From a virus: a stretch of DNA of 49,539 bases. The notes beneath the pieces were generated by a model that had not been told where the DNA came from, did not search any database, and saw only the letters and a program-made list of their open reading frames with translations. Both the position numbers and the translations under genes were made by a program. Shown here one piece after another: positions 23,212-25,274 of this stretch; the first letter of the stretch is position 1, and every line of letters begins with the position of its first letter. The stretch spans positions 1 through 49,539 of IMG/VR virus record IMGVR_UViG_3300025326_000053; one strand, written 5' to 3'.

Positions 23212-23235
23212 TGCTATCTACCAATGGAGAACAGC

Positions 23236-23676
23236 ATGAGTGAGATATTTGACGGCGACCGTGACTATATTGGCCCCTATCTCCGTTTCCTTGCCGACCA
23301 AATGGGGCTCCGCGATTGGTTCCTGTACCATGGCCATTCAACGCCACAAGACGAAGGACACAGTGAAGTCGTTGGCGGCACATGTACTCCAGAAGAAGGA
23401 CGTAAATCAGCCACCATCCGGCTACGTTCCGACTGGCCGTCCTGGGATGAAGAAAAGTTCCGGCATATCTGCGTCCACGAACTCCTCCACTGCCACTTTG
23501 CGCCGGTGCGCGACCCGTTATCTGAACTTGAATCCCTGATTGGGGTCATCATGTTTGCGCCAACGTGGGCAGCGACAACATCGGCAATGGAATACTGCAT
23601 CGACGGCATTGCCTACGACTGGGGACGACTCCTGCCAACACCCGCTGAGTGGCTGGAACGGGAAACGACACCGTAG
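23236..23676 (+). CDS. Putative zinc metallopeptidase (HExxH)
   Basis: 146 residues. ATG 23236 is chosen because GGAG lies 8 bases upstream; an in-frame ATG at 23224 is possible. The motif HELLH (81-85) in a helix preceded by WDEEKFRHICV is the zincin active-site pattern, and a downstream Glu-rich helix (PLSELESLIGV) could supply the third ligand. Size and context match small phage metallopeptidase-like proteins. A cytoplasmic host-modifying role is an inference. It is bracketed by terminators, so it may be expressed alone. Confidence 0.7.
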   Translation: MSEIFDGDRDYIGPYLRFLADQMGLRDWFLYHGHSTPQDEGHSEVVGGTCTPEEGRKSATIRLRSDWPSWDEEKFRHICVHELLHCHFAPVRDPLSELESLIGVIMFAPTWAATTSAMEYCIDGIAYDWGRLLPTPAEWLERETTP

Positions 23677-23679
23677 TGG

Positions 23680-23688
23680 TGCTATAAT
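23680..23688 (+). promoter_or_regulatory. Extended -10 promoter for a small RNA
   Basis: TGC-TATAAT is a perfect extended -10 box (TGnTATAAT). No clear -35 is needed for this class. Transcription would begin near 23695, after the metallopeptidase stop, and end at the terminator at 23777-23809. Confidence 0.65.
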
Positions 23689-23694
23689 CTGTAT

Positions 23695-23809
23695 GTGGCG
23701 TTATACCTTCCGCCACTGCAAGGATGGCTGGTCAATCTCATAGCACTTTTGCCTCTACCATCCATCCTGATTTACAGGGAGCCCTCTCATTGGCGGGGCT
23801 CCCTTTTTT
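23695..23809 (+). ncRNA. Candidate small RNA (~115 nt)
   Basis: The stretch lies between a perfect extended -10 box and a perfect terminator and has no open reading frame of note. It can fold into GTGGCG/CGCCAC (23695-23700 with 23711-23716), then GGATGG/CCATCC (23722-23727 with 23758-23763) and the terminator stem. An independent promoter, stems and terminator are what a phage-encoded sRNA gene looks like. I recognise no known family. Alternatively it is a leader of the tRNA-like gene downstream. Confidence 0.55.
23777..23809 (+). terminator. Rho-independent terminator
   Basis: GGGAGCCC and GGGCTCCC form a perfect 8-bp stem with an 11-nt loop, followed by TTTTTT. Confidence 0.9.
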
Positions 23810-23829
23810 GTGCCCTATACTGGTAACCA

Positions 23830-23952
23830 GCAGTGGTGGCGGAATAGGTAGACGCGAATCCCGTAAGGGTGTGGTGAGATACGTCAATGAAGGTCGGGTC
23901 GCACCCGGTATGTCCACACCATGCGGGGTGCAAATCCTCGCCCACTGCCCCA
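23830..23952 (+). tRNA. tRNA-Leu-like gene with encoded CCA and aberrant centre
   Basis: GCAGTGG (23830-23836) pairs perfectly with CCACTGC (23942-23948), followed by C and an encoded CCA (23950-23952). A canonical Leu-type D arm (GCGGAATAGGTAGACGC) follows the usual TG. A T arm with loop TGCAAAT and stems CGGGG/CCTCG lies next to the acceptor. The centre is abnormal. D arm leads straight into CCCGTAAGGG, which looks like a Leu variable arm, then ~48 nt closed by GGTGTGG/CCACACC. Within it GTCGG-GTCGCAC-CCGGT is a 5-bp stem with a 7-nt loop having U33 and A37 (anticodon CGC if real). Total 123 nt, against ~85-90 for tRNA-Leu. It may be a degenerate tRNA, a tRNA mimic or a rearranged gene. Confidence 0.6.
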
Positions 23953-24758
23953 TTCATAAACATTGTGCAGAAAATCACAATACATTGTGAAAGAAATCAC
24001 AAGATAAAGATCGTGACGTAAATCACAATGTTCCTTTCCTGCGAACTCGGTGATAAACTGCAAGGACAACCGAAGACAGCAGACACGCATTGATCTGAGC
24101 CGCGCATAACGGCCAGGGAGCACACTACCACCGGGGGACTTGCGGAGCCAACAGGCTCTTGGTACGGACCGGAGAGCCGTATCGTGTTCAACACGAAACC
24201 CACTCACCCATCACGGGGAGGGGGACTATAGGGGGTGGGGTTATCCCTTCCTATGCGGAACGCAGTGTAGCAACGGCGCTAGCCGTTACCCTTGCCGCAG
24301 CAACCCTTACCCTCAGGATTCCCCCAAACTCGGGGGAGAACGAGGGGTCCGGGGGTTGTTTCCTACCGGCACTCAGGACAGGGACACGACGGGAACGAGC
24401 AAGGATGACGAGAGGCGAATCCCCAGAATTCCTGTGACTTTCCTGCATGTTTGGGTGGGTCCCATCCATACATTCACACTCACCCACGCACGAATCCACC
24501 CCGGTAGGTAAGGCAGGCCCCTCCCCACAGGCACACCACCACCACACCACACCACAGAGGAGACACCCCCTCCCCTCCCCCTGTGCAGTGGCAGGCAGAC
24601 AGGTACACCACGAGCAGGGATAGGACACTGGCAAGGCTGGATCATACGGAGTGCTGGCGCGAGCTAAGGTATGAGAGGGATCAACCACCGGCATCAGCAC
24701 CGTCACAGTAACCACCGCGTATCACAGCATCGCATCCCCACCTATCACATGCGCACCG
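23953..24758. other. Long noncoding region (~0.8 kb)
   Basis: No convincing gene on either strand; the open frames here give Cys/Trp-rich or repetitive products. It holds three CRP-like operators (23964-24027), competing hairpins at 24145-24193 (GAGCC-aaca-GGCTC versus GGCTCT/AGAGCC, and CGTGT/ACACG), AACGGC/GCCGTT at 24272-24287, TCCCCC/GGGGGA at 24320-24337 and a C/A-rich, strand-asymmetric stretch at ~24500-24600. Lying beside a terminase-small-like gene, it could hold the packaging site. Confidence 0.55.
23964..24027. promoter_or_regulatory. Three tandem TGTGA-N6-TCACA operators
   Basis: Copies: TGTGC-agaaaa-TCACA (23964-23979), TGTGA-aagaaa-TCACA (23986-24001) and CGTGA-cgtaaa-TCACA (24012-24027). 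Centres are 22 and 26 bp apart. This is the core recognition pattern of CRP/FNR-family regulators. The middle copy is perfect. They lie downstream of the tRNA-like gene with no obvious gene start nearby. Confidence 0.65.
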
Positions 24759-25274
24759 TTACGTAGTCTCGGGTATCCGACCCATAGCTATTTCCTGGAG
24801 TTGCGCATCGGGGATAGAGTGAAAGCCCTCGATGTCCACCACCGAGCGCAAGGTATCGGCAGCATTGTCCCGCCGAGCCGTGGCAGGACCAAGCACCAGC
24901 TGGAGTCCCGCAATAGCCGCCGTCACCGCCACCCGGTCAGGCGACTCTATATCCCCACTGCCAGCGCCCACCAGATACAACGCCATGCTAGGCGCACCAT
25001 CCAGCAAGATCGCCGCGGTATCAACAAACTTCCGGGGGTCGGCACTCACATACCCAGCCGTTGCGTATCTGTGCCAGTCATGCCGATTGACCCACTGCCG
25101 GATGGTTCCAGCCGGTATATCCAGATCCGTGTTGGCAGACAGGTACCGGGCAGCTCGTGCCGCCGATCTATTGCCGTCAGGCGATGCCCACACCTCAAAC
25201 GCGATCCGCCGCGCTTCATGCTCAGGCAACGGGTAGACCTCTAACGCAACTTCCGAACTACCATCATATGCCAC
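24759..25274 (-). CDS. HTH protein, candidate small terminase subunit
   Basis: 171 residues from GTG 25274, with GAGGTG upstream at 5-nt spacing. Residues ~25-70 form a helix-turn-helix resembling the N-terminal domain of small terminases: GNRSAARAARYLS followed by PAGTIRQWVNRHDWHRYA. The middle is Ala/Leu-rich helical and the C-terminus ends in LQEIAMGRIPETT. It is the only minus-strand gene within the plus arm, flanked by a long noncoding region, which suits a packaging-site-binding protein or a regulator. It is separated from the terminase large gene by 3.3 kb, so the small-terminase call is tentative. Confidence 0.6.
   Translation of the reverse strand: MAYDGSSEVALEVYPLPEHEARRIAFEVWASPDGNRSAARAARYLSANTDLDIPAGTIRQWVNRHDWHRYATAGYVSADPRKFVDTAAILLDGAPSMALYLVGAGSGDIESPDRVAVTAAIAGLQLVLGPATARRDNAADTLRSVVDIEGFHSIPDAQLQEIAMGRIPETT

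Follow-up and report, generated by a model that had tools for sequence, protein, structure and literature searches.

The stretch of viral DNA analysed here (49,539 nucleotides of the IMG/VR record IMGVR_UViG_3300025326_000053, hereafter the window) carries on its plus strand, at positions 23,830 to 23,952, a genuine tRNA-Leu-like gene that belongs to a large RNA family and is not a product of tRNA decay. Its parts are collected in Table 1. The acceptor stem, D arm, T arm and CCA are all readable in the sequence, as the initial annotation had stated: the acceptor strands GCAGTGG and CCACTGC pair at seven of seven positions and form, with the 6-bp T stem, a stack of 13 bp. The covariance model R1 scores positions 23830-23949 at 75.2 bits (E 9e-17), a value that is partly by construction as the window is among its 61 seed sequences. 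Directly upstream of the element lies a gene (23224-23676) for a protein of 150 aa that contains HELLH, an HExxH motif, and has no match in PHROG or Pfam; a small HExxH protein is likewise found close to the element of a Listeria prophage (L195). Just ahead of the element, a TATAAT box, two hairpins and a further, strong hairpin of terminator type (23776-23803, followed by a T run) make the interval 23682-23810 look like a distinct small RNA of about 115 nt. Immediately 3' of it, positions 23965-24030 hold operator- or iteron-like repeats of the motif AATCACAA/TTGTGATT, and from 24030 to 24800 a long stretch towards the rightward early genes is free of any convincing gene. A plus-strand promoter scan ahead of the window copy found none. 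For the genes next to the element, the relatives found were near-identical copies of the same virus only, and around the window no more than short DNA matches to named phages came up (none by megablast), one of which, in the Bacillus SPbeta-like phage BUCT082, turned out to be a member of the family.

Table 1. Parts of the tRNA-Leu-like element in the window
Feature	Position	Strand	Basis or remark
Complete tRNA-Leu-like element, acceptor to CCA (123 nt)	23830-23952	+	Covariance model R1 on 23830-23949
Acceptor stem, 5' strand GCAGTGG	23830-23836	+	7/7 bp with 23942-23948
Leu-type D arm: stem GCG/CGC, loop GAATAGGTAGA (G18 G19)	23839-23855	+	Alignment of members
Linker GAATCCCGTAAG	23856-23867	+	CCCG (23860-23863) against CGGG (23895-23898) in the central loop, pseudoknot candidate
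P3 (central stem), 5' strand GGTGTGG	23868-23874	+	Fold and family statistics
Inner centre	23879-23911	+	Constrained fold; peculiar to the window member
P4, ATAC/GTAT	23879-23882 and 23908-23911	+	Constrained fold
P5, CGGGT/ACCCG	23895-23899 and 23903-23907	+	Constrained fold
P3, 3' strand CCACACC, 2 nt (AT) short of the T stem	23914-23920	+	Family optimum at 'minus 2'
T arm: 6-bp stem GCGGGG/CCTCGC, loop TGCAAAT with G55	23923-23941	+	Subtype trait and T-stem covariation
Acceptor stem, 3' strand CCACTGC	23942-23948	+	Covariation with the 5' strand
N73 = C, then encoded CCA	23949-23952	+	Sequence; not conserved in relatives

Standard tools pass over the gene. The fit to a standard tRNA was checked with ARAGORN, which called no tRNA in the window in its default, intron or mitochondrial modes; its tmRNA mode (-m) returned no match for the element, on which ground a tmRNA was rejected. 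The Rfam scan found no tRNA in the window (locally none even at E <= 10) and, at the gathering threshold, no family over the window element or over the elements of the scanned loci. In free folding of the window element the cloverleaf is not the minimum-energy structure; the argument therefore rests on comparison and not on the folding of a single sequence.

A specific search pattern matched three copies of the same virus (99.99-100% identical), while a search with acceptor and D arm led to an independent element (L012) with a different centre and the same odd ends, namely a 7-bp acceptor, a 6-bp T stem and G55; here the constrained cloverleaf is the minimum-energy fold as well. A broad pattern, combining D arm and T loop at a distance of 52-82 nt (wider than in a normal tRNA-Leu), matched at least 119 stretches of viral contigs; a collection of prokaryote genomes added 52. 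The latter are chiefly from Firmicutes, mainly Lactobacillaceae, Bacillus, Paenibacillus, Weissella, Leuconostoc, Listeria and Clostridia. Among the named phages that carry a member or match are phiJL-1, Sha1, ATCC 8014-B2, LP65 and the above-mentioned BUCT082, and two candidates (L008 and L009) were discarded as chance matches of a looser pattern. Members are present in 24 of 246 Lactobacillales genomes and in one of 199 genomes of the phylum that contains an acidobacterial MAG. Applied to twelve genomes, R1 gives the members of its seed genomes 61-86 bits, as against ca. 29-38 bits for tRNA-Leu-sized matches. Some contigs carry close or tandem pairs of members (L124:7602-7812, L029:2643-2892, L097:948-1695). 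A tRNA-Leu-like element with a centre of 17 nt (a short GNRA hairpin), A73 and an encoded CCA (L013:11526-11593; 38 bits with R1) is a small anticodon-less relative.

To assess covariation, we aligned 61 diverse members, window included, that had been pre-filtered for pairing. In the acceptor, D and T stems 99.5% of the cells are paired, against 74% in shuffled alignments; the pre-filter somewhat inflates this figure, yet it does not account for the cells that are changed on both sides, 257 against 66 in shuffles (0 of 500 reaching the observed value). Sliding the partner strand by one to three columns leaves 36-45% paired. All seven acceptor pairs show both-sided changes across the 61 members, and among 120 pattern matches picked blind to the acceptor, 113 allow at least six of the seven acceptor pairs (counted as the best of six offsets, with the acceptor window one base off). 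Conservation of the D arm is in part imposed by the search pattern; members found by covariance model show it too. Compensatory changes in related phages, which the initial annotation had proposed to look for, are thus abundant, and the random decay that it had set against them is absent from the relatives, whose acceptor and T stems covary. These results bear on the reading of the gene as a decayed tRNA-Leu, or as an attP remnant of a host tRNA gene, that survives by chance. Its Leu-type sequence would fit such an origin, and prophages commonly bear tRNA fragments (PMC9897764). Against it stand the compensatory double changes all along the acceptor and T stem, the specific departures shared by the members (104 of 106 couple G55 to a 6-bp T stem), the recurrent genomic position of the element, and the absence of an integrase among the scanned ORFs of the window (a subset of its ORFs). 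We reject this reading on the covariation and regard it as scarcely conceivable.

The family falls into two subtypes. In the first, which includes the window element, a T stem of 6 bp accompanies G55 (104 of 106 non-redundant members); in the second, a T stem of 5 bp accompanies U55 (35 of 40). The G at T-loop position 55 that the initial annotation had pointed out is therefore a family trait tied to the longer T stem: the T loop of the window departs from U54 U55 C56, and a stack of 13 bp takes the place of the canonical 12 bp. At position 73 the members of this subtype have A, T, C and G in 57, 29, 14 and 6 cases, respectively, and the window has C73 where the leucine discriminator would be A73. 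An encoded CCA occurs in one of the 106 non-redundant members against ca. 1.7 expected by chance, so the CCA of the window is probably coincidental; the notion that both ends are under selection thus holds for the acceptor and T stems and probably not for the CCA. Among class II tRNAs, LeuRS requires A73, and EF-Tu reads the acceptor-T stack. For these reasons the G55 subtype seems unlikely to be charged and delivered in the usual way, and leucine charging as a function is weakened by the unconserved N73.

The centre, which spans 40-77 nt across the family, is highly divergent from phage to phage. A canonical anticodon arm (four of five bp at positions 27-43) is found in three of 106 members with 1.9 expected, i.e. 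at chance level, in agreement with the earlier remark that the arm is missing and the centre rewired. Members without a decoding arm cannot decode and must make use of the tRNA machinery otherwise. What recurs instead is a stem whose 3' strand stops two bases ('AT') before the T stem: near-perfect 7-bp stems occupy this position in 23% of the members and in 0.7% of swapped controls, and the mean helix score across the family is 13.5 against 9.5 in shuffles (0 of 300). In the window this stem is GGTGTGG/CCACACC, which had been noticed before and is indeed paired at seven of seven positions; by itself it reaches a shuffle p of 0.016, and its strong support comes from the family. It also holds the position of the variable arm, a role initially given to CCCGTAAGGG, where the relatives show a linker. 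This linker, which frequently ends in UAAG in the relatives, tends to pair with the loop inside the central stem, giving an H-type pseudoknot (score across the family 11.3 against 10.2 shuffled; 0 of 300). Examples with covariation come from related Bacilli (AUCUCGU/ACGAGAG, AUCUAGU/ACUAGAG and GUAUCGU/ACGAUAA), and GAGUUGAGC/GCUCAACUC with AUCGGUU/AACCGAU is another. The window itself offers CCCG/CGGG alone, a pairing that is not significant there on its own.

The same statistics bear on the proposal that the element is a real tRNA after all, be it one with a small intron, a permuted one, or a suppressor with an unusual cloverleaf. The 5-bp/7-nt hairpin with U33 and A37 around CGC speaks for it, as does the tRNA-Ala(cgc) that ARAGORN proposed inside the window element at a lowered threshold; this hairpin is present in the sequence, as annotated, but it is no feature of the family, in which anticodon arms stay at chance level. 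Removal of a segment restores no anticodon arm, which speaks against a tiny intron, and the acceptor ends, and with them the mature ends, lie in normal order, which does the same for a permuted gene. With the negative ARAGORN results in normal and intron modes and the unconserved N73 added to this, we consider a real tRNA highly improbable, and its intron-bearing and permuted forms were rejected on the ARAGORN modes and the centre statistics.

In Firmicutes phages the element sits after the ArpU/RinA late activator and before HNH/terminase genes. Among 66 loci of the Firmicutes type, the upstream gene matches a phage late activator (phrog_248 in 26 loci, phrog_36 in 22; the two sets may overlap), and HNH endonucleases or terminase subunits are frequent among the genes that follow. 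Terminators follow 13% of the elements as compared to 2.4% of random windows, and some members adjoin tRNAs. Known prophage RNAs lie immediately 5' of three members. Of two Listeria-like prophages, one (L195:1911-2136) has an element whose first 9 nt are still covered by the Rfam match to rliG (RF02415), and in the other (L198:1766-1898) the element begins 51 nt after rli62 (RF01486), with the mcrA RNA ca. 150 nt further on; at a third locus (L059) the ROOL RNA (RF03087) ends 13 nt upstream of the element. These RNAs are neighbours of the family; their Rfam models stop short of the tRNA-like element or overlap it by 9 nt. Both rliG and rli62 have been described as sRNAs of prophage A118 (PMC3556495), and secreted RNA is reportedly enriched in rliG (PMC6786865). 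The 9-nt overlap suggests that the published 3' end of rliG is a tRNA-type processing site.

Such an arrangement recalls the tRNA punctuation of organelle transcripts, and the element might act in cis only: cut by tRNA enzymes, it would trim its neighbours (rliG, ROOL, tRNA arrays) and create the 5' end of the late mRNA. The spacings just given, the proximity of tRNAs, and the position between late activator and HNH/terminase genes are all in line with this. A mini tRNA would suffice for the task, however, and the large folded centre would be left unexplained; moreover, nine Enterococcus-like genomes (genus inferred) carry the element as a free-standing gene that has nothing to process. In these chromosomes it occupies a common site downstream of azlC/azlD-like genes and consists of a promoter (TTGCAT...TATNAT), a leader of ca. 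20 nt, an element of 130-132 nt and an intrinsic terminator. The element, including its centre, is near-identical in the nine genomes, whereas the spacer and terminator sequences diverge. This gene is the clearest evidence that the family comprises a functional RNA, probably transcribed independently, and a purely cis-acting role appears unlikely to us.

A further possibility is a decoy or counter-defence RNA that acts in trans and sequesters either a host protein that binds tRNAs or a tRNA-attacking defence nuclease, the hypervariable centre reflecting an arms race. Lacking an anticodon arm, such an RNA would resist anticodon nucleases. The conserved elbow (D loop plus T loop), the strong divergence of the centre among phages and the mostly phage or prophage occurrence agree with this, but no defence partner is known, and the almost frozen centre in the Enterococcus-like lineage fits a pure arms race poorly. 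An explanation by arms race only is weakened accordingly, and we rate the decoy as quite improbable.

Several known RNAs invite comparison. The family shares with canonical tRNA-Leu (class II, RF00005) the acceptor, the Leu D arm with G18 G19, the T arm and a stem at the variable position; it differs by the missing anticodon arm, the centre of 40-77 nt, the 6-bp T stem with G55, the unconserved N73 and the lack of an encoded CCA in the relatives. Like the family, tmRNA (SsrA) combines tRNA-like ends without an anticodon arm with pseudoknots. The family members are much shorter, have a Leu D stem, and contain no identified tag-coding region. YrlA, a bacterial Y RNA known from bacteria and phages, is likewise non-coding and has a tRNA-like elbow module besides its Ro-binding stem; the ends of the family form a free acceptor stem, and the Rfam scan gave no match. 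The tRNA-Other of Bacillus cereus is a non-translational tRNA-like element within a larger bacterial RNA and adjoins mobile DNA (PMC3399842), but carries a Trp anticodon, whereas members of the family lack the anticodon arm. The analysis also brought up tRNA-like elements of a second, opposite type: stretches of 58-60 nt with acceptor, D and T arms, only ca. 10 nt between them and no anticodon arm. The Rfam tRNA model scores them at 42-46 bits, and in Lactobacillus phages they often accompany the oversized element (L033, ca. 100 nt 5' of the latter; L022; L188:3004-3063; L018:2288-2345; L159:2699-2756). In the openly licensed literature we found no account of the family (subscription journals lay outside the search), which is apparently undescribed so far.

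Taken together, we incline towards a non-decoding structured RNA that uses its tRNA-like ends for processing and stability and acts in trans. It would be built on a chassis derived from tRNA-Leu (acceptor, D arm, T arm and elbow), in which a variable, often pseudoknotted domain replaces the anticodon arm. At both tRNA-like ends the primary transcript would be cleaved, with RNase P acting on the 5' side and RNase Z or another tRNA 3' maturation activity on the other, and this cleavage may release the RNA from neighbouring RNAs or from the late mRNA and add to its stability. The 13-bp acceptor-T stack, G55, the missing anticodon and the unconserved N73 would bar it from charging and translation, and it could then act through its variable domain, by tying up a protein that recognises the tRNA elbow, or by both. 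The function ascribed to the variable domain is inferred. A more specific version, to which we give a little less than an even chance, is that of a widespread, hitherto undescribed class of regulatory or counter-defence RNAs with the tRNA-Leu body as a non-decoding scaffold and an interchangeable pseudoknotted effector, employed by phages when they turn to late expression and adopted as a stable chromosomal gene in the Enterococcus-like lineage.

Hundreds of such genes appear to exist in phages and bacteria, unreported by tRNA finders or Rfam. They would represent a natural tRNA body rebuilt for non-decoding use, with a common chassis and a swappable domain. For Listeria the findings suggest that rliG, and possibly rli62, are pieces of transcripts in which a tRNA-like element, overlooked so far, defines the 3' boundary. 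The free-standing genes reside in cultivable bacteria, which makes expression, processing, partners and deletion phenotypes directly accessible.
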